From Nitrosovibrio sp. Nv4 (GTDB lineage: Bacteria > Pseudomonadota > Gammaproteobacteria > Burkholderiales > Nitrosomonadaceae), in assembly GCF_900215485.1 (NCBI RefSeq), contig NZ_OCMZ01000001.1:372001-436000 (forward strand): a DNA stretch of 64,000 bases, written 5' to 3'. Positions within the stretch are counted from its first letter, which is position 1, and every line of letters starts with the position of its first letter. A program made the position numbers and the translations under genes. The notes beneath the pieces were generated by a model, which made no database searches, was not told where the DNA came from, and was given only the letters and a program-made list of their open reading frames with translations. Of the stretch, positions 37,141 to 52,378 are shown in pieces.

Positions 37141-38209
37141 ATGTTTCTGACGCGGGCAGAACTGGAAGAATTGATCGATTACAAGCTACCGCATTGGCAA
37201 TGTACCTGGCTCGAGAAAAACGGCTATTGCTTTCAGGTAGGCCGTAGAAAATCCAACCTCAACTTGCCCCCGCGCATGTACCAGAAACATGGCGCTTATT
37301 ACTACGTCACGCAGAGCAACAAGTGGATCCGTCTCTCAGATAACCTTGCCCAGGCAAAGGCAAAATGGATTGAGCTTGAGGGTGAGGTTCCACAAACTGA
37401 CACCGTTGCTGCGCTGATTGGCCTGTACTTTCAAAGTTGCACCAAAGAAAGCCCCTCGCACTTATCGGGACAATCTCACAGAGGCAAAGCCGCTGATTGC
37501 CGTATTCGGGAAAATGCGCCCAGGTGATGTTCGCCCTATGCATGTTGCACAGTACCTTGACGTCAGAGGCAAGAAAGCGCCGGTCCGGGCAAATCTCGAA
37601 AAATCCCTTCTATCGCACGTATTCAGCATGGCAATGCGCTGGGGTGTAGTGGACTCTAATCCATGTCGAGGCGTCGCAAGAAATACCGAGAAAGGCCGCG
37701 ATAGATATATTACCGACGCAGAGTTCACCGCAGTCAAACAGATTGCGGGCGATTTCATAGCGACAGTGATGGAGTTGGCCTACCTGACAGCACTTCGTAA
37801 GGGTGATATTTTTGCATTGCGACTTGAGCAGATTACTGCTGAGGGCATCTATATCAAGCAGGGCAAAACCGGCATCAAGCAACTATTTGAGTGGACACCA
37901 ACGCCCAAGGAAGTGATTGCCCGTGCCCGTGCTTTGCCCCGTCCTATCCGGGGTTTATATCTATTCTGCACGACGAGAGGACAGCCTTACACTGTGCTGG
38001 ATTTAAGGCAATGTGGAATCGCGTTCAGGTGAAATGGGCAGAATCAGGGGGGTGAGCGTTTCACTTTTCACGATATTCGAGCTAAGGCACTAACTGATGC
38101 CAAAAGACAGGGACTTGATGCTCAGGCATTGGCAGGTTATACATCCTCAGCCACAACCGACCACTACATCAAGATTAAGGAATTCCGAAAAGTGACTCCG
38201 TTACGCTAA
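37141..38209 (+). pseudogene. Tyrosine recombinase (phage/island integrase), frameshifted
   Basis: One integrase of about 350 residues can be rebuilt across three frameshifts. The N-terminal part runs from 37141 in one frame to about 37433. It continues KVAPKKAPRTYRDNLTEAKP and MHVAQYLDVRGKKAPVRANL to about 37995, including the catalytic Arg in TALRKGD. After a second shift come GFKAMWNRVQVKWAESGG. A third shift at a run of six G (38047-38052) leads to RFTFHDIRAKALTDAKRQ with the H-x-x-R pair, and to TTDHYIKIKEF with the catalytic Tyr, ending at 38209. All catalytic residues survive, so inactivation is either recent or partly sequencing error. It is the natural enzyme for the tRNA-His insertion. 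Confidence 0.85.
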
Positions 38210-39161: not shown

Positions 39162-39182
39162 TTGATGGGGTGGCTGATGGGG
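39162..39182. repeat. Island attachment repeat, tRNA-proximal copy
   Basis: 21 bases identical to 35694-35714. They overlap the 3' 17 bases of tRNA-His (acceptor strand, discriminator, CCA and start of the T stem). Confidence 0.85.
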
Positions 39183-39241
39183 ATCGAACCCACGACAACC
39201 GGAATCACAATCCGGGACTCTACCACTGAGCTACAGCCACC
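39166..39241 (-). tRNA. tRNA-His (anticodon GTG)
   Basis: A 76-nt cloverleaf including encoded CCA. Acceptor stem GTGGCTG/CAGCCAC with the extra 5' G (position -1) and discriminator C, both specific for tRNA-His. The anticodon loop reads ATTGTGATT and the T loop is GGGTTCGATCCCC. Its 3' end is the insertion site of the island. First from the left of a three-tRNA cluster. Confidence 0.97.
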
Positions 39242-39303
39242 ATCGGAGAAACCATAATGCATCGTCTGAAGCTCAGGCGCCATTCGCCAGAAAAGATAGC
39301 CTA

Positions 39304-39380
39304 TGGCGTGCCCGACAGGAATCGAACCTGTAACCCCCAGCTTAGAAGGCTGGTGCTCTATCCGGTTGAGCTACGGGCAC
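39304..39380 (-). tRNA. tRNA-Arg (anticodon TCT)
   Basis: 77 nt with encoded CCA. Acceptor GTGCCCG/CGGGCAC, anticodon loop CTTCTAA, variable region and T arm CAGGTTCGATTCCTG are all canonical. Same strand as its neighbours, so probably one transcript. Confidence 0.97.
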
Positions 39381-39415
39381 CACTCAAATCGGATTTCGCC
39401 TCAGATTAACATGAA

Positions 39416-39492
39416 TGGTCGGGGTGGAGAGATTTGAACTCCCGACATCCTGGTCCCAAACCAGGCGCGCTACCAGGCTACGCTACACCCCG
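39416..39492 (-). tRNA. tRNA-Pro (anticodon TGG)
   Basis: 77 nt with encoded CCA. Acceptor CGGGGTG/CACCCCG, anticodon loop TTTGGGA and T arm GGGAGTTCAAATCTCTC. First in transcription order of the Pro-Arg-His tRNA cluster. Confidence 0.97.
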
Positions 39493-43767: not shown

Positions 43768-44874
43768 ATGTCCGATCTCGTTGATGTTTTCCAACTGGCG
43801 CCGACGCAACTGCCCATTGACTGGTATCTCGATCCCCGTATTCTTGATTTGGAAAAGCGTTATTTATTTGAGCGGGGACCCGGTTACGTCGGGCATGAAA
43901 TCATGCTGCCGGATGTGGGCGACTATTATGTGCCGGAATGGATGAGCAATGCCAAAGTACTGGTGCACAACAAGGGCGGAATCGAGTTATTGTCGAACGT
44001 CTGCCGCCATCGGCAATCTCTGCTGCTCAAGGGCCGCGGCAATACCCGAAACATTGTTTGCCCCATACACCGCTGGACTTACGATTTGCACGGCACACTG
44101 CTTGGCGCTCCCCATTTTTCCGAAAATCCTTGCCTCAATCTTGGCAATACGCCATTGCAGAATTGGAACGGTCTGCTCTTTGAGGGCAAGCGAAACGTGG
44201 CGCGCGACCTCGCGAACTTGAGCGTGCTCAAGGACTTCGACTTTTCCGGCCATGTACTGGAACGCGTTCAGATAGAAGAATATGCTTGCAATTGGAAGAC
44301 TTTTATCGAGGTTTATCTCGAAGACTATCACGTCGAATCATATCATCCGGGGTTGGGCAACTTTGTTGATACCGCCGAGTTGGCATGGGAATTTCAAGAG
44401 TGGTACAACGTACAGACCGTAGGTATAAACAATGATCTCACTCGCCCGGGTACACCGGTTTACGCCAGATGGCATGAACAACTGCTACGTCAAACCGGGG
44501 GAAAAACGCCAAGGCACGGCGCGATCTGGATGCTCTACTATCCCAACATCATGTTAGAATGGTATCCTCACGTCCTGATTATCAGCATGGTGCTTCCGGC
44601 GGGAACAGAACGCTGCACCAATGTGGTCGAATTTTATTATCCAGAAGACGTCGCTTTGTTTGAACGGGAATTTATTGAAGCAGAGCAAGCCGCCTATCAC
44701 GAAACCGCGGTTGAGGATGATGAAATCTGCAAGCTGATAACTGCCGGACGCCGTGCCCTGTTTGAGCAGGGGATCAACGAAACCGGCCCGTATCAGTCGC
44801 CAATGGAAGATGGTATGGCACACTTCCACGAATTTTTGCGTCGGGAAATCGAGCCGCACATTAAGGACTATTAG
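43768..44874 (+). CDS. Rieske non-heme iron oxygenase alpha-subunit-like protein
   Basis: A 368-residue ring-hydroxylating-oxygenase-type protein. The Rieske cluster motif C-x-H-x16-C-x-x-H runs from NVCRHRQ to IVCPIHRW (about residues 76-98). The mononuclear iron site is YLEDYHVESYHPG (two His; about residues 188-200). The C-terminal half has the START-like fold pattern (MLYYPNIMLEWYPHVLIISM). It resembles the uncharacterised Rieske proteins of beta-proteobacteria rather than a named dioxygenase. No reductase or beta subunit lies nearby; a small SpoIIAA-like gene follows. Substrate unknown. Confidence 0.85.
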   Translation: MSDLVDVFQLAPTQLPIDWYLDPRILDLEKRYLFERGPGYVGHEIMLPDVGDYYVPEWMSNAKVLVHNKGGIELLSNVCRHRQSLLLKGRGNTRNIVCPIHRWTYDLHGTLLGAPHFSENPCLNLGNTPLQNWNGLLFEGKRNVARDLANLSVLKDFDFSGHVLERVQIEEYACNWKTFIEVYLEDYHVESYHPGLGNFVDTAELAWEFQEWYNVQTVGINNDLTRPGTPVYARWHEQLLRQTGGKTPRHGAIWMLYYPNIMLEWYPHVLIISMVLPAGTERCTNVVEFYYPEDVALFEREFIEAEQAAYHETAVEDDEICKLITAGRRALFEQGINETGPYQSPMEDGMAHFHEFLRREIEPHIKDY

Positions 44875-44910
44875 TGTGCTCTATAAAATTTCATGTTTTG
44901 CGGGCTTACC

Positions 44911-45255
44911 ATGATTACCATTCAGGAAACTGATAATCTGATCAGCGTTGCCGTCTTCGGTGAGTTTACCTTGGCTGACTACAAAGAATTCGAGGAGCAG
45001 GTGCTCCAGAAATCACGGCGCGACGTCAAACTGAATGTACTGTTCGATTGGCGCGATATGGTGGATTACACCGTCGACGTCGTATGGGAGGACATCAAGT
45101 TCATCCGGGAACACGGCAGCGAATTCAATCGGATCGCAATAATCACCGAGAATCAGTGGCGTGCCTGGAGTGCATGGGTATCTAATCTATTCGTTGACGC
45201 CGACATCAGGGTATTCAGTGATTACGAGGATGCGAAAGCATGGGTTGGGGCCTGA
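44911..45255 (+). CDS. SpoIIAA-like (STAS/CRAL-TRIO-type) small protein
   Basis: 114 residues from the ATG at 44911: MITIQETDNLISVAVFGEFT begins the typical SpoIIAA-like fold, with FEEQVLQKSRRDVKLNVLFD, VVWEDIKFIREHGSEFNRIA and IRVFSDYEDAKAWV further on. This group is common beside membrane or stress genes; function unknown. It follows the Rieske gene by 36 bp and may be co-transcribed. Confidence 0.82.
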   Translation: MITIQETDNLISVAVFGEFTLADYKEFEEQVLQKSRRDVKLNVLFDWRDMVDYTVDVVWEDIKFIREHGSEFNRIAIITENQWRAWSAWVSNLFVDADIRVFSDYEDAKAWVGA

Positions 45256-45857
45256 GGTTATGCCTTCCGGATTCCGGGGTTGACGGTACCCTGCGGCAAA
45301 ATATGGGCGTATTTAACAACACTTGGTAAAATGCCTGGCTATCAGGTAGGGGACTCGTCTGGCGATTGAAACTACTCGTCCATTCGGCACTTGTGTTGAT
45401 GTAGAATGCCGCATGGCAGCCGGATAAATTGAGATCAGCGTCGCAGGCCCAAAATTGGCATCGCTGGTTTCGAGTAAGTGTTGCAAAAAAGCTACACATT
45501 TCTCTTCCATTCTCCAAAATCTCTTTATATTGGCTTCCAACTCGTACAGAATGGACCCCGTTGCTTTTGCAGCCCTGAAAACGAGCGTAAAGCCTGCAAT
45601 TTATTTATTTAAACGGCATCTGCGCGCGGAAGCCCGGCGGTGTTTGGTGTTTTTACCCTGTACAAATAAATCGCGGTGCTCTGACAGTCGCTATAATAGA
45701 AGCCCGTTAATTAATTAACTTAACACGTGTTGGCTTCGAGCGCCGTACGTAAGATTTTTGATTTAATAATTTGATTTTCAAGCTGAGCGCTTAGAGCCCA
45801 GCGGACAGTTGCAACGAGAATAATGTTCCCGACCGGAATCCTTTACATTACAAAAAG
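45256..45857. other. Intergenic region upstream of the lipid operon
   Basis: About 600 bp with no convincing gene. It should contain the promoter for the four-gene operon that follows. A TATAAT hexamer lies at 45692-45697 without a good -35. A TTAATTAATTAA stretch is close by. Confidence 0.45.
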
Positions 45858-47717
45858 ATGACTAGCACCATTAATTTGGAGGGGAAGACCTTGAGTTCAA
45901 CAATAGCGAAGTTGAACGCTCCGCTAACGCAAGCGTTTGATCCTCGGTTATTAAACGAGTCACCAATAGCAATAACCCCAACACCAACTCATAACACTCA
46001 AACTCAGAGATTGGCTGACTTTGAAACCTTGACCGCTGCTTTGGAATACGCGGCAGTTGGGACCGCCGGATATAATTTTTACGATGCCAGAGGCAATCTA
46101 CGCTCAGTCCTTCCCTATCAGGCACTAAGGCAAAACGCCCGCAACTCGGCGCAACGGCTGCTGAGTATCGGTCTGACCAGTGGTGATCGTGTGGCAATTA
46201 TTGCCGATACCACCCCGGAGTTTGTCGAATTATTTTTTGCATGCCGGTTCGCGGGGCTGATTCCTTTTGCGATGCCCGTGCCGGTCAATCTTGGCAGTCA
46301 TGCGGTGTATGTTCAACAGCTTCGCGGCATGCTTGAAGCCGGACAGGCAAGTGCCGCGGTTGCCAATGTGGACTATATTAACTTCCTTGAGGAAGCTGCG
46401 GAGGGTTCGCAACAATTACGCTGGGTCGGTACTCCAGAGCAGCTCGGTAAGTTCCCCGTTCCAGACGTGGCTCTGCCGCCAAATCATCCTGATGAAATCG
46501 CCTATCTCCAATTTACCTCTGGAAGCACTCGTGTCCCGCGTGGAGTAATCATTACCGAGCGGGCATTGATGAGCAATCTGCAGGGAATTGTTCGCCACGG
46601 ATTGGAAATCCACGCGGGTGATCGTTGCGCGTCCTGGCTGCCGTTTTATCACGACATGGGCCTGGTTGGCATGGTAATGGCACCCATGGTGGCACAGGTT
46701 TCTGTTGATTATCTGGCGACCCGGGATTTTGCGATCAGACCGCTTCAATGGCTGCGGCTGATTAGCCGGAATCGAGCTACTGTGGCGTTTAGTCAACCAT
46801 TTGGCCTTAAACTCTGCACCCTGCGGGTCCGCGATTCCGACTTGGAAGACCTTGATCTTAGCAGTTGGCGTGCCGCTGGTGTCGGCGCTGAAATGATCCG
46901 GCCTGATACCCTAAGAAACTTTGCGGAAAAATTCGCACCTGCGGGATTTGATGCACGAGCTTTCCTCCCCTGTTACGGGCTGGCCGAATCGACGCTTGCC
47001 GTAACTTTTTCTCAGGTTGGTCAAGGTTTCCAGAGCCTGCGAGTTGATGCTGGAACCCTGGTTGATAGAAAGATGGCCATTCGATTACAGGCGGATGGCA
47101 GGAAGTATAGCGAATTTGTAAATTGCGGCCGCGCCTTGCCCGAGCACACGGTCAAGGTGGTTGATGATGCCGGACAGCTTTTGCCCGATTTAAGGGTTGG
47201 CAGCGTTCTGGTGCAAGGTAGCAGTATCATGACAGGTTACTTTAATAACCCGGAAGATACCCGGAAAACGCTCCAGCCTGGCAACTGGTTGGATACTGGT
47301 GATCTGGGATTCCTTTTTGATGGCGATCTTTATGTTACTGGCCGTCGCACCGATGTAATAATTGTCAACGGACGGAACATTCGCGCTCAGGACATAGAAG
47401 AACTTGCCGAACAACAGCCTGAGGTGAGAACAAGGGAAGCATCCGCTTTTGGCATAACTGACGCTAACGACGCTACAACGATTGTTCTGGTGATCGAGTG
47501 CCGCCTAACGTCAGTAACAGATCGGCAATCTCTTACCAGCAGATTGCAACGGCTCGTGTATATGGCGTTCGGCGTTAATTGCCTGGTTGAGTTGGTTCCT
47601 CCGCATACGTTGCCTCGGACTTCATCCGGGAAATTATCGCGTTTTGCGGCACGCCAGGGTTTCATTCAGCGGACAAACCTGACAGACCAGCTATCAGCCG
47701 AGTCTGGGGACATATAA
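45858..47717 (+). CDS. Fatty-acyl-AMP ligase (FAAL)-like adenylating enzyme
   Basis: A 619-residue ANL-superfamily enzyme that activates a fatty acid as acyl-AMP and probably loads it on the ACP encoded downstream. Core motifs are AYLQFTSGSTRVPRGVIIT (P-loop, about residues 214-232), SWLPFYHDMGLVG, LPCYGLAESTLAVTF (A5) and TGRRTDVIIVNGRNIRAQDI (A8 hinge), the last in the FAAL form. An about 50-residue N-terminal extension precedes the domain. It opens a four-gene operon; the next start is seven bases past its stop. In Caulobacter an acyl-ligase of this kind supplies acyl chains for ceramide. Confidence 0.88.
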   Translation: MTSTINLEGKTLSSTIAKLNAPLTQAFDPRLLNESPIAITPTPTHNTQTQRLADFETLTAALEYAAVGTAGYNFYDARGNLRSVLPYQALRQNARNSAQRLLSIGLTSGDRVAIIADTTPEFVELFFACRFAGLIPFAMPVPVNLGSHAVYVQQLRGMLEAGQASAAVANVDYINFLEEAAEGSQQLRWVGTPEQLGKFPVPDVALPPNHPDEIAYLQFTSGSTRVPRGVIITERALMSNLQGIVRHGLEIHAGDRCASWLPFYHDMGLVGMVMAPMVAQVSVDYLATRDFAIRPLQWLRLISRNRATVAFSQPFGLKLCTLRVRDSDLEDLDLSSWRAAGVGAEMIRPDTLRNFAEKFAPAGFDARAFLPCYGLAESTLAVTFSQVGQGFQSLRVDAGTLVDRKMAIRLQADGRKYSEFVNCGRALPEHTVKVVDDAGQLLPDLRVGSVLVQGSSIMTGYFNNPEDTRKTLQPGNWLDTGDLGFLFDGDLYVTGRRTDVIIVNGRNIRAQDIEELAEQQPEVRTREASAFGITDANDATTIVLVIECRLTSVTDRQSLTSRLQRLVYMAFGVNCLVELVPPHTLPRTSSGKLSRFAARQGFIQRTNLTDQLSAESGDI

Positions 47718-47724
47718 TCGGGAG

Positions 47725-48639
47725 ATGTCGCAGTCATTGGTGGCGGTGACTGGTGCCACCGGCTTTATTGGTCGCATGCTTTTACAGTCACTGATCAAGG
47801 AAGGGTGGAAGGTCAAGGCTTTGACCAGACGCCCTCGGCCAGATGATGAGTTTACGCAATGGATCGAGGGCGATCTGGACGACGTCGATGCATTGCGGCG
47901 GCTTGTCAAAGATACTGTCGCTGTTGTGCATTGCGCGGGGCGGGTCCGGGGCAGTTCTCTTGATGATTTCGTTCATACCAACGTAGGCGGTACAGAAAAT
48001 TTGGTGCGCGCCTCGATAGAACAGAGTTCCCCGCCTCGTTTTCTCCTTATATCCTCCCTTGCTGCAAGACAACCGGAGCTTTCCTGGTATGCAACCAGTA
48101 AGCGCATGGCCGAGCAGGTGGTGAGTGACTGCTCGGGCAAAATAGCATGTGCAGTTTTTCGCCCGACCGCGGTTTATGGTCCAGGTGATAAGGAAATGAG
48201 CCCCCTCTTCAGAGTAACCCAACGCGGTATATTGCCAATGGTCGGGCAGCGTGCGATGCGCTTTGGTTTACTGCACGTCAATGATCTGGTGGCGGCTATT
48301 ATCTGCTGGCTTTCCACCAGAACGCCCGTACGAGGACTCTATGAGATCGATGACGGGATGCCCGGGGGCTATGACAGTCAATCCGTCGCGGATATTGCAC
48401 AAGAGGTCTGGCAACGGCCAGTTCATTGCATTTTCTTTCCCGGAGCACTTGTTTTGGTGATCGCCACCATTAATTTGTGGTTGGCCCGGTTGCTGCGATA
48501 TTCCCCAATGCTGACGCCGGGGAAGGTCAGGGAGTTACGCCATCCCAACTGGGTGTGCGATATCACGCCTCTAACCCGGGCGCTTCCCAACTGGCAACCT
48601 TCCGTTCAACTGCGTGACGCCTTGCCTGAAGCAATATAA
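47725..48639 (+). CDS. NAD-dependent epimerase/dehydratase, CerR-like reductase candidate
   Basis: A 304-residue extended SDR. The nucleotide motif VAVTGATGFIGRMLLQSLI is at the N-terminus, then VVHCAGRVRGSS, SSLAARQPELSWYATSKRMA with the YxxxK pair, and AVFRPTAVYGPGD. A hydrophobic C-terminal stretch (FFPGALVLVIATINLWLARL) suggests membrane association. It lies between the ligase and ACP genes. In bacterial ceramide synthesis the corresponding SDR reduces the 3-ketosphinganine or ketoceramide; that role here is inferred from gene order. Confidence 0.83.
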   Translation: MSQSLVAVTGATGFIGRMLLQSLIKEGWKVKALTRRPRPDDEFTQWIEGDLDDVDALRRLVKDTVAVVHCAGRVRGSSLDDFVHTNVGGTENLVRASIEQSSPPRFLLISSLAARQPELSWYATSKRMAEQVVSDCSGKIACAVFRPTAVYGPGDKEMSPLFRVTQRGILPMVGQRAMRFGLLHVNDLVAAIICWLSTRTPVRGLYEIDDGMPGGYDSQSVADIAQEVWQRPVHCIFFPGALVLVIATINLWLARLLRYSPMLTPGKVRELRHPNWVCDITPLTRALPNWQPSVQLRDALPEAI

Positions 48640-48692
48640 GCGCAACATAAGCGATATAATTTTAACCCATCAAATCAAATCAGAACCAAGCC

Positions 48693-48947
48693 ATGGCGAG
48701 CGATTACAACGATGTGCTGCAAAAACTTTGCCACCATCTCAAGCAATTTACCGGTCCTGATGCAGAAATTACGCCAGAGACAGATCTTATTAATCAGCTT
48801 GCAATCGACTCCGTCAAGTTATTGAATCTGATCATGGAAATCGAGGATGAGTTTGATATCTCCGTACCTATCAATGCGCTTGCGGATGTTCAGACTGTTC
48901 ACGAGCTCGCGACGTTAATTCATCAGATAAGAACTGCAAATAAATGA
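48693..48947 (+). CDS. Acyl carrier protein
   Basis: 84 residues. The 4'-phosphopantetheine site is the Ser in LAIDSVKLLNLIMEIED (about residue 38), in DSV rather than the DSL of housekeeping AcpP. The flanking ETDLINQL and FDISVPINALADVQT are standard helices. Its stop overlaps the next start by four bases (ATGA). It presumably receives the acyl group from the FAAL and gives it to the downstream condensing enzyme. Confidence 0.9.
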   Translation: MASDYNDVLQKLCHHLKQFTGPDAEITPETDLINQLAIDSVKLLNLIMEIEDEFDISVPINALADVQTVHELATLIHQIRTANK

Positions 48948-50131
48948 GTTTGCTAGATAAGCTTGAGGCCGTTGCTGCAGCGCGAAAAGCCCTGTTACCT
49001 GAGGACGTTGAGGTTTTTGGTACGCCCATAGATGCGGTTTATTCTTCCACCGAGGCAAAAATTGGCGACCGCCGCATACTATTCCTGGGTACAAACAACT
49101 ATCTGGGGCTAACATTCGCTCCCGAATGTCTGCAGGCAGCCCATGTGGCGATCGATAGCGAGGGCACAGGCACGACGGGATCACGCATGGCCAATGGCAG
49201 TTACAGTGGCCACCGCGCCCTTGAGCAGGAGTTTGCAGATTTTTACCAATGCCATTCCTGCATCGTATTCACAACCGGTTATCAAGCCAATCTCGCCACG
49301 ATCTCTGGCTTGGCGGGAACTGGTGACGTTGTTCTTATTGATGGCGACTCCCACGCAAGTATTTATGATGGATGCCGCTTAAGTGGCGCCGAGATTATCA
49401 GGTTCAGACATAATGATATGGTCGACCTGGAAAAGCGCCTTCGGCGTTTGGGAGATCGCTCTCGTTCCACGCTCATCATTATTGAAGGCATTTACAGCAT
49501 GTTGGGCGATCGAGCGCCGTTGGCTGATGTCGTTAAATTAAAAGACACTTACGGCAGCACGCTTCTTCTGGACGAAGCGCATTCCCTCGGGGTTCTAGGT
49601 AAGACAGGCCAGGGTCTGGTGGAAGAAACGGGACTTGTCGGCGAAGTTGATTTCATCACCGGTACCTTCAGTAAAAGTCTGGGCGGTATCGGAGGCTATT
49701 GTGTGAGCAAACATCCACAACTTGATCAATTACGCTATGTCAGCCGTCCGTATATATTCACGGCGTCGCCTACACCGGCTACCATTGCATCGACACGGGC
49801 GGCGCTCAGGTTACTGCGGGATGGTGTCGGATTACGCCAGCAACTCTGGCGGAATGTACACCAACTGTATTCCCGGCTTGATAAGCTCGGCTATCAGCTC
49901 GGTCCGGAGCCCAGTCCCATTATCGCAACCATACTTGACACACCGCAGCAGGCGCTGGCGATATGGAGGGGTCTGCTTGAACACGGCATCTATGTCAACC
50001 TGGTCGTACCGCCGGCCGCGCCCGAAGGGAATTCATTGGTGCGTTGCAGTGTTAGCGCAGCCCACAGCAGTGAACAGATGGACTATGTAGGGAACGCTTT
50101 TTCCGAGCTACGCAAAACTATTTTCCAATAA
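48944..50131 (+). CDS. Serine palmitoyltransferase-like alpha-oxoamine synthase
   Basis: PLP enzyme of 395 residues in the AOS family (SPT, KBL, BioF). Seen: LGTNNYLGLTFAPE, GTGTTGSRMANGSYSGHRAL, IDGDSHASIYDGC with the PLP-stacking His, LLLDEAHSLGVLGKTGQG, and the Schiff-base Lys in GTFSKSLGGIGGYC. The HSLGVLG and FRHND segments and the context of FAAL, SDR and a private ACP fit SPT better than BioF, since no other biotin genes are near. Likely reaction: L-serine plus acyl-ACP/CoA to 3-ketosphinganine. BioF-like activity cannot be excluded from sequence alone. Confidence 0.85.
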   Translation: MSLLDKLEAVAAARKALLPEDVEVFGTPIDAVYSSTEAKIGDRRILFLGTNNYLGLTFAPECLQAAHVAIDSEGTGTTGSRMANGSYSGHRALEQEFADFYQCHSCIVFTTGYQANLATISGLAGTGDVVLIDGDSHASIYDGCRLSGAEIIRFRHNDMVDLEKRLRRLGDRSRSTLIIIEGIYSMLGDRAPLADVVKLKDTYGSTLLLDEAHSLGVLGKTGQGLVEETGLVGEVDFITGTFSKSLGGIGGYCVSKHPQLDQLRYVSRPYIFTASPTPATIASTRAALRLLRDGVGLRQQLWRNVHQLYSRLDKLGYQLGPEPSPIIATILDTPQQALAIWRGLLEHGIYVNLVVPPAAPEGNSLVRCSVSAAHSSEQMDYVGNAFSELRKTIFQ

Positions 50132-50461
50132 CATCAGGAAATTTTATTTTTGTGGAGGATTGACAGCGATCTCTGAAAAATCCGTGGAAGTCTGTGTTTG
50201 ACCCCTCTCCTCTACTTTGATAGTGGTTCCCGTACATGAGATTCGAATATCTCAATAGATAGGAAGACTCCGCCCGAATAGATCAGCAGGTGACAACTAC
50301 GGCCTTCGTCATGAATCGAAGGATGGCTATTCCAAGGGATAGGTTATTGATGCCCTACGGGAATCCAATATTTACGTCCAGTCAAACCAGTAGTCTACCG
50401 GCTTGACTGGACGCTACTATTGAACGAGTGTATAACTGAACAGAGAGATCGAATTAACCAG
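50132..50461. other. Intergenic region between convergent genes
   Basis: 330 bp, no gene. It holds an 11-bp inverted repeat (50375-50385 with 50403-50413) that could end one or both convergent transcripts. Confidence 0.5.
50375..50413. terminator. Hairpin between convergent genes, possible terminator
   Basis: CGTCCAGTCAA and TTGACTGGACG are perfectly complementary with a 17-base loop. No strong U tract follows on either side, so it may be a factor-assisted terminator or simply a stabilising hairpin. Confidence 0.4.
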
Positions 50462-51058
50462 TCAGGACATCTTCGCGCTCGTTCGGCGGCGCAACAGGAA
50501 GAAAGCGGCAGCTCCCCCTATGCCCAGCAACAAAGCAATTTCTGTCATGCCAAAGCCTGAACCATGTCCATCATGGCCACCGCCGCCACCTACATGTATC
50601 GGAATCCGTACCGCTGTGGTCATTTTACCCGCTTTCTCCGTCTCCAGTAGCAGGGCGTATTGACCGAGTTCTTCCAGATTCACCGAAAATGTAATACTTC
50701 CCGATGGATAAGGTTTAGCTGGTACGGACATAATCTCATGCCCACCTTCTCCATGTCCTTCCATAACAAGACGCAGCGCAATGGGGATCTCGCGAGAATC
50801 GAGATCCGTTAAATCCACCGTAAAATACAGCTCGCCCGTTTCCGGAACATGATCGCAATACGCATGAGTGGGCGGAAGATCGCCCTTGGGCTTTTCATAA
50901 GCGCTGAAAGCTACGGGAAAAGCCCCCGACTTGATGGCACAGTCACCTGAATGATGGCCTTCATGGGCGAGCATGAGTTGCGCATGAGCTGGCAGCGCTA
51001 CCATTGCTACCAACGCAGCCAATGCCAGCCCTGCGGCGCACCCAAAAATTCTCTTCAT
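50462..51058 (-). CDS. Secreted protein with Gly-rich C-terminal membrane tail
   Basis: A 198-residue protein I do not recognise. The signal peptide is MKRIFGCAAGLALAALVAMV, ending near ALPAHAQ. The body (about 28-150) is a beta-rich domain with HEGHHSGDCAIKSG and several His that could bind metal. Then follow HVGGGGGHDGHGSGFG, a hydrophobic helix MTEIALLLGIGGAAAFFLL and a basic RRRTSAK end. This three-part tail resembles GlyGly-CTERM-type sorting signals or a simple C-terminal anchor. Single gene between the lipid operon and rnpB. Confidence 0.75.
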   Translation of the reverse strand: MKRIFGCAAGLALAALVAMVALPAHAQLMLAHEGHHSGDCAIKSGAFPVAFSAYEKPKGDLPPTHAYCDHVPETGELYFTVDLTDLDSREIPIALRLVMEGHGEGGHEIMSVPAKPYPSGSITFSVNLEELGQYALLLETEKAGKMTTAVRIPIHVGGGGGHDGHGSGFGMTEIALLLGIGGAAAFFLLRRRTSAKMS

Positions 51059-51257
51059 AATATCTCCGTTTCAAATCCGCAAATTGATCAGCAAATGATC
51101 AGACACCTCGCACCCGCGCGAGCAATCGCCGATTGTATAACAAACCGGTCGGGAGGAAACAGAGTATTCTTCAGATTCTGTTCTCCTTTCCGCGGCTTCA
51201 ATTCCTGTTAAACGCCGCATTCGCGCCGTTTCCGGTGTATCAGGTTCAAAAACAAAA

Positions 51258-51557
51258 GGAAGCTGGCCGATAAGCCGGGTTCTGTCTTGGACAATCATTC
51301 CTCTAGACCCGCGGTTGCCCGCGCGTTCAAGCGACCTACCCGCAGGCTCAGCGAGCAGCATCATAGCCTGCCTATTTGGTCTTGCTCCGGATGGAGGTTA
51401 CCGCGTTTCACCGTAACTTAATACGCTCGTCTCTGTGGCCCTATTCCTCGCCTCGCGGCGGCCGGTCATTAACCGGCATCCTGCTCTGTGGAGCCCGGAC
51501 TTTCCTCCCCTTGTCTTTCATTACTGAAAGACAAGCAGCGATTGTCTAGCCAGCTTC
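51258..51557 (-). ncRNA. rnpB: RNase P RNA
   Basis: Catalytic RNA for tRNA 5' processing. Hallmarks on the minus strand: the 5' strand GAAGCTGGCTAGACAATCGC, the conserved GAGGAAAGTCCGGGCTCC region, GGGTGAAACG-like loop sequence ACGGTGAAACGCGG, and the 3' part AGACAGAACCCGGCTTAT then CGGCCAGCTTCC, which pairs with the 5' end. About 300 nt by these ends, short for a type A RNA, so some peripheral helices must be reduced. Ends are set by eye. Confidence 0.93.
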
Positions 51558-51862
51558 GATATGAATAATACCCTAACCGGGGCGAACGGAGCAAACTCAG
51601 CCGCACGAGCATCGGCCCTCCAGATTCAAGCTGAAACATGTATGGAAGTATTAGCTGCAGGCAGCAGGCAATAAACTATCCACTCCTGCTGGGACTGGTG
51701 CCGGCGTGTGTAGTCTCAGTATGCTTTTCGCTCCTCGGGTAACGCACCTGGAAAAATGATACTCGATCCGCTGCTTCTTCATATCAGGCAAAAAATAAGC
51801 GCAAACATCTCAAATTTATAAATTATTCGAGTTATGATTCTGGTTTGTGGCGCTGGTTACCT
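51558..51862. other. Intergenic region upstream of rnpB and the lipoprotein gene
   Basis: About 300 bp between the divergent rnpB and the WHy-domain lipoprotein gene. Promoters for both are expected; I cannot mark them reliably. Confidence 0.4.
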
Positions 51863-52378
51863 ATGAACCCATTCATATTGCTTGTCTCAGCGTTGTTTCT
51901 CCTCCTTTCCGGATGTGCGGCATTGGAGCGGCAGGATCCGCTTCGGATTTCCGTCGCTGGACTTGAGCCTCTGGAGGGAAAAGGCATGGAGGCGCGCTTC
52001 GCAGTACACCTCAGGATTCAGAATCATAGCGAAAAACCACTTGATTACGATGGCATCGCGCTTGATCTGGATTTACGCGGAATGAGTTTCGCGAGCGGCG
52101 TGAGCGACCAGCACGGTGTTGTTCCGCGCTTTGGAGAAACGGTCATTACCGTGCCGGTTACCGTACCGGCCACGGCAATGATCCGTCACGCATTCGACTT
52201 CGCAACTGGCGACCGTACCAAGGCTGACTACCAGCTGCATGGCCGACTGGGCGGAATGGGGCCCATCGGCGGAAGGCGCTTCGACTCAAAGGGAGAAATC
52301 ATGCTGCCGACCCCGCCGGAGGAAATGCCATATGAACCTCTGAATCAGCCCTCCGCCGAACATCCATCAAGCAACTAG
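51863..52378 (+). CDS. LEA type 2 (WHy-domain) lipoprotein
   Basis: 171 residues from the ATG at 51863: MNPFILLVSALFLLLSGCAA is a lipoprotein signal with lipobox LSGC. The single domain (DPLRISVAGLEPLEG to the VPVTVPATAMIRHAF region) is the WHy/LEA-2 beta-sandwich found in many proteobacterial lipoproteins of unknown function. The end is Pro/Glu-rich. It converges on pyrE with a four-base overlap of coding ends. Confidence 0.85.
   Translation: MNPFILLVSALFLLLSGCAALERQDPLRISVAGLEPLEGKGMEARFAVHLRIQNHSEKPLDYDGIALDLDLRGMSFASGVSDQHGVVPRFGETVITVPVTVPATAMIRHAFDFATGDRTKADYQLHGRLGGMGPIGGRRFDSKGEIMLPTPPEEMPYEPLNQPSAEHPSSN

Follow-up and report, generated by a model that had tools for sequence, protein, structure and literature searches.

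The DNA analysed here is a stretch of 64,000 nucleotides (the window, G000:C3:372001-436000) from a 3.27-Mb genome (3 contigs), and it carries an operon of four genes, aasR, cerR, acpR and spt, which the evidence supports as backbone genes of sphingolipid synthesis. The host is placed in the Nitrosomonadaceae, the betaproteobacterial ammonia oxidisers, from the nearest relatives of its serine palmitoyltransferase (Spt) and not from amo genes; the closest named Spt among the matches listed belongs to Nitrosovibrio sp. Nv6 (97% identity), followed by Nitrosospira. In this family, lipid A is probably replaced by a phosphosphingolipid that travels over the Lpt bridge, the system that exports lipopolysaccharide (LPS). 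A wider proposal is favoured only slightly, namely that lipid A was abandoned by the family as a whole and that phosphosphingolipids became the new basis of its outer membrane, so that an exporter without canonical LptF/LptG became a sphingolipid Lpt machine with one client.

The distribution of sphingolipid and lipid A genes was observed in 61 genomes, consisting of the window's own genome, 22 of its genus, 14 more of its family (37 Nitrosomonadaceae) and 24 from other families in the same order. Spt over the profile cut-off, the ceramide synthase CerS and a lipid kinase were each found in 37/37 Nitrosomonadaceae and in 0/24 of the other genomes; the kinase matches in G027, G028 and G031 contain one in-frame stop. 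In contrast, LpxC was found in 0/37 Nitrosomonadaceae and in 24/24 other genomes. LpxB over the cut-off followed the same pattern (0/37 versus 24/24), with a match below the cut-off in G030. The controls, E. coli and Caulobacter, were positive for LpxC, LpxB and LpxK.

The Lpt bridge is present throughout these genomes, with LptD and LptC in 61/61. In the window's own genome, a kdsC-like gene, lptC, lptA and lptB stand in a row and lptD lies elsewhere. LptA, LptB and LptC pass curated models there (LptA and LptB were examined in this genome only), and LptD is under two NCBIfam cut-offs and over the Pfam cut-off. The LptF/LptG family PF03739 has two matches in 60/61 genomes and three in G021. 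In 36/37 Nitrosomonadaceae, as compared by hand, both genes are no more than about 5 kb away from cerS. In G005 (L141, L142), lptG is near cerS and lptF is on a different contig, and the third, extra LptF of G021 (L143, L144) is closest to that of G005. Among the genomes of the rest of the order, 11 of 24 were fetched; lptF stands beside pepA in 11/11 of them, and lptG stands with it in 10/11.

The kinship of these permeases follows the same division. In the two trees, with 37 rows for LptF and 32 for LptG, the family rows join rows from sphingolipid clusters, and all pepA-side rows together with E. coli lie apart, with supports of 99 and 98. A quick method was used, with support from the Shimodaira-Hasegawa-like approximate likelihood ratio test (SH-aLRT) only. 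The family is represented by 8 LptF and 7 LptG rows from eight genomes, own included, besides one extra copy, and the canonical E. coli pair was taken from K-12, not BL21. The own LptF is 32-54% identical to 17 cluster rows and 21-26% to 12 pepA-side rows; the own LptG is 30-57% identical to 13 cluster rows and 27-33% to 12 pepA-side rows. As each family genome has two LptF/LptG genes (three in G021), nearly always beside cerS, and as those typed (eight genomes) are of the sphingolipid type, the canonical pair seems to be gone, which would leave the sphingolipid-cluster pair for LptB, LptC, LptA and LptD.

LptD also varies in size. The own protein has about 200 extra residues before its profile match, which begins at protein residue 244 and profile position 41. 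In three genera of the family, most LptD open reading frames (ORFs) have 898-976 aa (the exceptions, G002 and G034, are on cut contigs), against 722-771 aa in genus g3 and, for the most part, 742-895 aa in the rest of the order.

In the proposed mechanism, AasR would load a fatty acid onto AcpR, and Spt would condense the acyl-AcpR with L-serine to form 3-ketosphinganine. N-acylation by CerS and reduction by CerR would then give dihydroceramide; which of the two comes first is an unsettled matter in Caulobacter, according to the passage concerned in PMC11324152. The lipid kinase of the cerS operon would produce ceramide-1-phosphate, to which a Tam41-like protein may add a nucleotide, leading to a phosphosphingolipid with a predicted head group like that of ceramide phosphoglycerate. 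This lipid would take the place of lipid A in the outer leaflet, LpxC and LpxB having been lost, and the Lpt bridge, with the sphingolipid-cluster LptF/LptG, would perhaps or even probably transport it outward to that leaflet. The loss of LpxC and LpxB, the retention of Lpt and the sphingolipid-type LptF/LptG are most simply explained if the outer leaflet passed from lipid A to a phosphosphingolipid. What the comparison shows directly are the genes with their relatedness, order and distribution, from which the enzyme activities, the head group, the direction of transport and the absence of LPS are inferred.

Several points weigh against this proposal. The survey of lipid A genes was confined to LpxC, LpxB and LpxK. 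LpxK was found in 5/37 Nitrosomonadaceae, all of one genus, and in 22/24 other genomes. In a second set, drawn from the 80 Spt loci described below and comprising the genomes that carry 32 of them (completeness is not stated, and its five Nitrosomonadaceae may overlap the 37), LpxC was found in 0/5 Nitrosomonadaceae and in 26/27 Spt-bearing genomes from outside the family, the miss being G071, the genome of L082. This result indicates that the sphingolipid cluster alone is not tied to LPS loss and that the Nitrosomonadaceae are special. The 37 genomes are kin, so that the link between Spt and LpxC does not amount to 37 independent cases; Spt may have been gained once and LpxC lost once. Genes of the type that handles 3-deoxy-D-manno-oct-2-ulosonic acid (Kdo) persist, one KdsC-like beside lptC and one KdsB-like near the cerS operon. 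A Kdo-type glycan may therefore still be made, for a capsule or as a glycan on another lipid. In addition, the own LptF and LptG pass curated LPS-export permease models that do not discriminate between the sphingolipid-cluster and the canonical type.

Genus g3 (G024, G027, G030, G033 and G036) retains LpxK without LpxC or LpxB over the cut-off. Its LpxK may act on another lipid.

An alternative that is unlikely, and still the strongest of the rivals, is that ceramide is an ordinary minor lipid, that lipid A was lost by genome reduction, that glycerophospholipids hold the outer leaflet and that Lpt serves, for example, a Kdo-bearing glycolipid. Reductive evolution was the explanation of Opiyo et al. 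(2010, PMC3087551), in whose lipid A passages N. europaea has lpxK alone out of nine lipid A genes and N. multiformis is cited with lpxA alone; the restriction of LpxK to one genus here agrees with that lpxK finding. The KdsC-like and KdsB-like genes and the universal LptC and LptD also suit a glycolipid client. However, two genera of Nitrosomonadaceae have genomes of only 1.3-2.1 Mb, and Spt, CerS and the kinase are kept throughout the family even at 1.3 Mb, whereas other members of the order with genomes of 1.2-1.8 Mb retain LpxC. The presence of both LptF/LptG genes in the cerS operon of nearly all family genomes, those typed being of the sphingolipid-cluster kind, likewise argues for phosphosphingolipid export over a minor role for ceramide.

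It is improbable that lipid A is made through a pathway that is unrelated or has diverged strongly, with LPS present and the sphingolipid as an extra. Such a pathway would accord with the retained LptC, LptD and Kdo-type genes, with the passing of LPS-export models by the own LptF and LptG, and with the LpxK of one genus. Nevertheless, LpxC and LpxB (over the cut-off) are jointly missing from every family genome, yet both were detected in all 24 genomes searched from the rest of the order, and the count for N. europaea comes from an independent survey (the same passages of PMC3087551).

The genes of the window operon and of the cerS operon are listed in Table 1 together with the other features mentioned in the text. 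The preliminary description, made from the letters of the window, had named a fatty acyl-AMP ligase, a short-chain dehydrogenase/reductase (SDR), a private acyl carrier protein (ACP) and an Spt-like alpha-oxoamine synthase (AOS) in one tight operon. All four ORFs were recovered in place on the plus strand with matches to their family profiles. As for the tight junctions, the 7 bases between aasR and cerR (47718-47724) and the 4-base ATGA overlap of acpR and spt (48944-48947) are real, and a gap of 53 bases between cerR and acpR (48640-48692) had gone unmentioned. AcpR matched 16 NCBIfam ACP models, and 0/16 reached the cut-off. The products of aasR, cerR and acpR are 47%, 44% and 42% identical (the last over 65 aa) to AasR, CerR and AcpR of E. 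coli BL21. The positions of aasR and cerR match Neut_0458 and Neut_0459 of Nitrosomonas eutropha; acpR sits directly 5' of spt, and aasR is present in the same genome.

Table 1. Features of the window operon, the cerS operon and other loci named in the text (window positions count from the first letter of the window; C3 positions are those of the contig in G000).
Feature	Position	Strand	Length	Assignment and profile match
aasR	window 45858-47717	+	619 aa	Fatty acyl-AMP ligase family; predicted acyl-AcpR synthetase loading a fatty acid on the private ACP; NF006624, 873 bits (cut-off 600)
cerR	window 47725-48639	+	304 aa	Epimerase-type SDR; predicted 3-keto reductase; PF01370, 92.5 bits (cut-off 20.9)
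acpR	window 48693-48947	+	84 aa	Private acyl carrier protein; PF00550, 47.2 bits (cut-off 20.8)
spt	window 48944-50131	+	395 aa	Serine palmitoyltransferase; predicted substrates L-serine and acyl-AcpR, whose acyl chain is joined to the serine; NF047599 (curated betaproteobacterial serine palmitoyltransferase model), 590 bits (cut-off 500)
cerS	C3:968454-969614			Ceramide synthase by match to BL21 YghO
MobA-like gene	C3:969633-970490			Nucleotidyltransferase; PF12804, 55.3 bits (cut-off 27)
lptF	C3:970533-971615			Curated LptF model, 331 bits (cut-off 230)
lptG	C3:971612-972676			Curated LptG model, 326 bits (cut-off 240)
Lipid kinase gene	C3:972841-973854			DAGK_cat, by profile; candidate ceramide kinase of CpgB type
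Tam41-like gene	C3:973855-974826		323 aa	Tam41-like by predicted fold
KdsB-like gene	C3:978229-979062 (L027 8229-9062)			
KdsC-like gene	C3:524155-524715 (L147 6156-6716)			
lptD	C3:1085555-1088401 (L148 2556-5402)		948 aa	
Integrase-like ORF	window 37418-38032			Identified by eye
tRNA trio	window 39166-39492			His, Arg, Pro
Rieske-type gene	window 43768-44874			Ring-hydroxylating oxygenase
SpoIIAA-like gene	window 44893-45255			
RNase P RNA	window 51255-51557	-		Class A

By curated profile and tree, the AOS enzyme of the window is a serine palmitoyltransferase, and with acpR directly before its gene it fits the rhodobacterial, ACP-using class. The existence of the curated NCBI model NF047599 means that this Spt is already a named family. 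The protein is below the cut-offs of the rival models, with 327 of 426 bits for BioF (TIGR00858), 273 of 493 for Kbl (TIGR01822), 236 of 339 for HemA (TIGR01821) and 212 of 428 for autoinducer synthase (NF005526). Its top matches among PDB sequences are bacterial serine palmitoyltransferases (E 1.2e-120). The phylogenetic check proposed in the preliminary description places it with Spt, away from BioF and Kbl: in a tree of 46 rows, the window protein and 25 other Spt rows split from the non-Spt rows with support 100/98. The non-Spt side contains E. coli BioF, E. coli Kbl, the own BioF, 16 other AOS rows and L094_Spt13964, whose Spt label came from BLAST only and which groups with BioF and was counted as non-Spt. 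The tree drew on 24 of the 80 Spt loci (L033 was left out) with ORFs picked by BLAST, and no CqsA or HemA row was included as such. K244, H137, D210, H213 and R367 are identical in 26/26 Spt rows. Two results count against the assignment: a long-branch warning was raised for L113 and L117, both next to the Spt side, and V355 of the window protein aligns with an arginine of the Sphingomonas Spt. Position 355 is occupied by F, I, L, V or W among the Spt rows.

The use of L-alanine or another amino acid, which would lead to 1-deoxyceramides or other capped amides, is very unlikely. Sequence does not reveal the substrate, and the valine in place of the Sphingomonas arginine leaves some room for this idea, but the catalytic residues match those of solved serine palmitoyltransferases and the lipid kinase, which would need the 1-hydroxyl, is present in 37/37 family genomes. 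That the enzyme is instead BioF, Kbl or an autoinducer synthase and that the operon does not serve sphingolipids is scarcely credible and was rejected, since despite the shared superfamily and the BioF score the protein passes only the Spt cut-off among these models, falls with Spt in the tree and co-occurs with CerS and the lipid kinase, and since the second AOS gene of the genome is a BioF (481 bits, cut-off 426) that adjoins bioB (404 bits, cut-off 225).

The preliminary description had also remarked that a ceramide synthase of the bCerS type was absent from the window. This held, and a genome-wide search with BL21 YghO then located cerS 546 kb beyond the end of spt, as the one gene matched in the own genome (G000:C3:968493-969602, E 7.9e-121, 47% identity). 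The ceramide reading of the operon is thus borne out by the curated Spt profile, the Spt tree, the separate BioF and the presence of cerS. CerS has no Pfam match at E 0.001 and no NCBIfam match. Its predicted model (mean pLDDT, the predicted local distance difference test, 80.5; with residues 134-159 below 50) is similar to tandem GNAT acyltransferases, with a best Foldseek E of 1.9e-15, a template modelling (TM) score of 0.61 and a root-mean-square deviation (rmsd) of 5.4.

The model of the 323-aa protein (pLDDT 80.8, five sequences) resembles Tam41, a cytidine diphosphate-diacylglycerol (CDP-DAG) synthase, with E 6.2e-8, TM 0.49 and rmsd 6.6, and PF09139 matches it at E 0.0012, below the cut-off of that family. 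In fold and in this weak match the protein, a candidate CC_1161 orthologue, fits a printed remark in PMC11324152, which credits CC_1161 with a CDP-DAG-synthase domain and a possible role in forming nucleotide-activated ceramide. BL21 proteins were used where possible as stand-ins for Caulobacter CpgB, CC_1161, CC_1153 and bCerS, and a BLAST comparison with 13 proteins of the BL21 cluster gave no match for the own kinase, MobA-like and Tam41-like proteins.

Two candidate names were discarded. No CofC model matched the second gene of the cerS operon, a candidate CC_1153 orthologue, at E 0.1, and the name CofC-like was dropped in favour of MobA-like by PF12804. A PF04339 (FemAB-like) gene (G000:C3:264790-265902) was dismissed as ceramide synthase because BL21 YghO matches no Pfam family and finds the other gene.

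Synteny was observed in the best 80 of at least 571 confirmed Spt loci. The order aasR-cerR-acpR-spt on one strand is kept in 68/80, which indicates that the operon arrangement is not due to chance. The 12 exceptions all retain acpR or break off beside it; eight of them end at the record end (L037, L059, L070, L073, L074, L083, L098 and L100), L080 and L084 miss only the CerR match, and L091 and L105 miss the AasR and CerR matches. Within the fetched stretches (at most 10 kb each way), CerS was found at 23/80 Spt loci and LptF at 16/80. Because the Spt and cerS operons stand side by side, adjacent and divergent, in L072, L075-L078 and others, the usual sphingolipid cluster appears to be split in two in the Nitrosomonadaceae.

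L033, L051, L070 and L072, titled Moraxellaceae, Gammaproteobacteria, Bacteroidetes and Klebsiella pneumoniae, have Spt loci 67-83% identical to that of the window. The names or bins of these metagenome-assembled genomes look wrong.

Other features of the window lie around the operon. The RNase P RNA is the sole Rfam match over the gathering score within 44000-52000, and the tRNA trio and an integrase-like ORF lie farther upstream. The Rieske-type and SpoIIAA-like genes immediately upstream (together 43768-45255) were dropped as parts of the system, as they adjoin the operon in near kin only; by BLAST, the former is beside the operon in 10/92 loci and the latter in 9/92 (12 of the 92 loci span only about 4 kb).

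The route of bacterial sphingolipids to the outer membrane is stated as unknown in the passages concerned of PMC11324152. In bacteria like those outside the family that were searched through an Spt locus, 26/27 of which also have LpxC, LPS and sphingolipid cargoes are hard to separate by genetics. The Nitrosomonadaceae, without LpxC and LpxB and with ceramide-phosphate genes and sphingolipid-type LptF/LptG, would separate both cargoes. If true, the replacement of lipid A would explain the LPS-free life of widespread nitrifiers, would have implications for how these bacteria withstand detergents and antimicrobial peptides, and would predict that betaproteobacterial ammonia oxidisers of soil and sewage have a sphingolipid as marker.

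The operon itself has been described before. In the gene list of Padilla-Gomez et al. (2022, PMC9386255), Nitrosomonas eutropha has Neut_0458 (aasR), Neut_0459 (epi), Neut_0460 (acpR), Neut_0461 (spt) and Neut_1100 (aca, cerS); the corresponding parts of Olea-Ozuna et al. (2024, PMC11324152) credit it with no fewer than 13 of the 17 genes of the Caulobacter cluster. According to these parts of both papers, strain C91 has the same four genes in the same order as the window, and its cerS also lies elsewhere. Lipopolysaccharide or LPS is not a word in the available text of PMC9386255, and the six N. eutropha passages of PMC11324152 are silent on LPS. No paper linking lipid A loss with sphingolipids in the Nitrosomonadaceae was found in the open-licence literature. 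Sphingomonads are described in the introduction of PMC11324152 as LPS-free, with a sphingolipid in the place of LPS.

The yghO-spt cluster of E. coli BL21 has aasR, cerR, acpR and spt in the order of the window (42-54% identity), with lptG and lptF alongside. In Caulobacter crescentus, CC_1152-CC_1168 also include these four genes together with cerS, ceramide kinase, nucleotidyltransferases and an lptF/lptG pair (cluster description in PMC11324152), and the Spt of Caulobacter prefers acyl-AcpR as substrate (enzyme passages of PMC9386255). LptF2 and LptG2 are called second versions there (PMC11324152, same description), whereas in the Nitrosomonadaceae the genes are divided between two places and the search for LptF/LptG turned up no further pair. 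Unlike the Nitrosomonadaceae, which are without LpxC and without LpxB over the cut-off, E. coli and Caulobacter keep both of these enzymes as well as LpxK. The lipid A gap itself was published for two species (survey passages of PMC3087551), and its coupling with sphingolipid genes and with sphingolipid-type LptF/LptG is the proposal made here.

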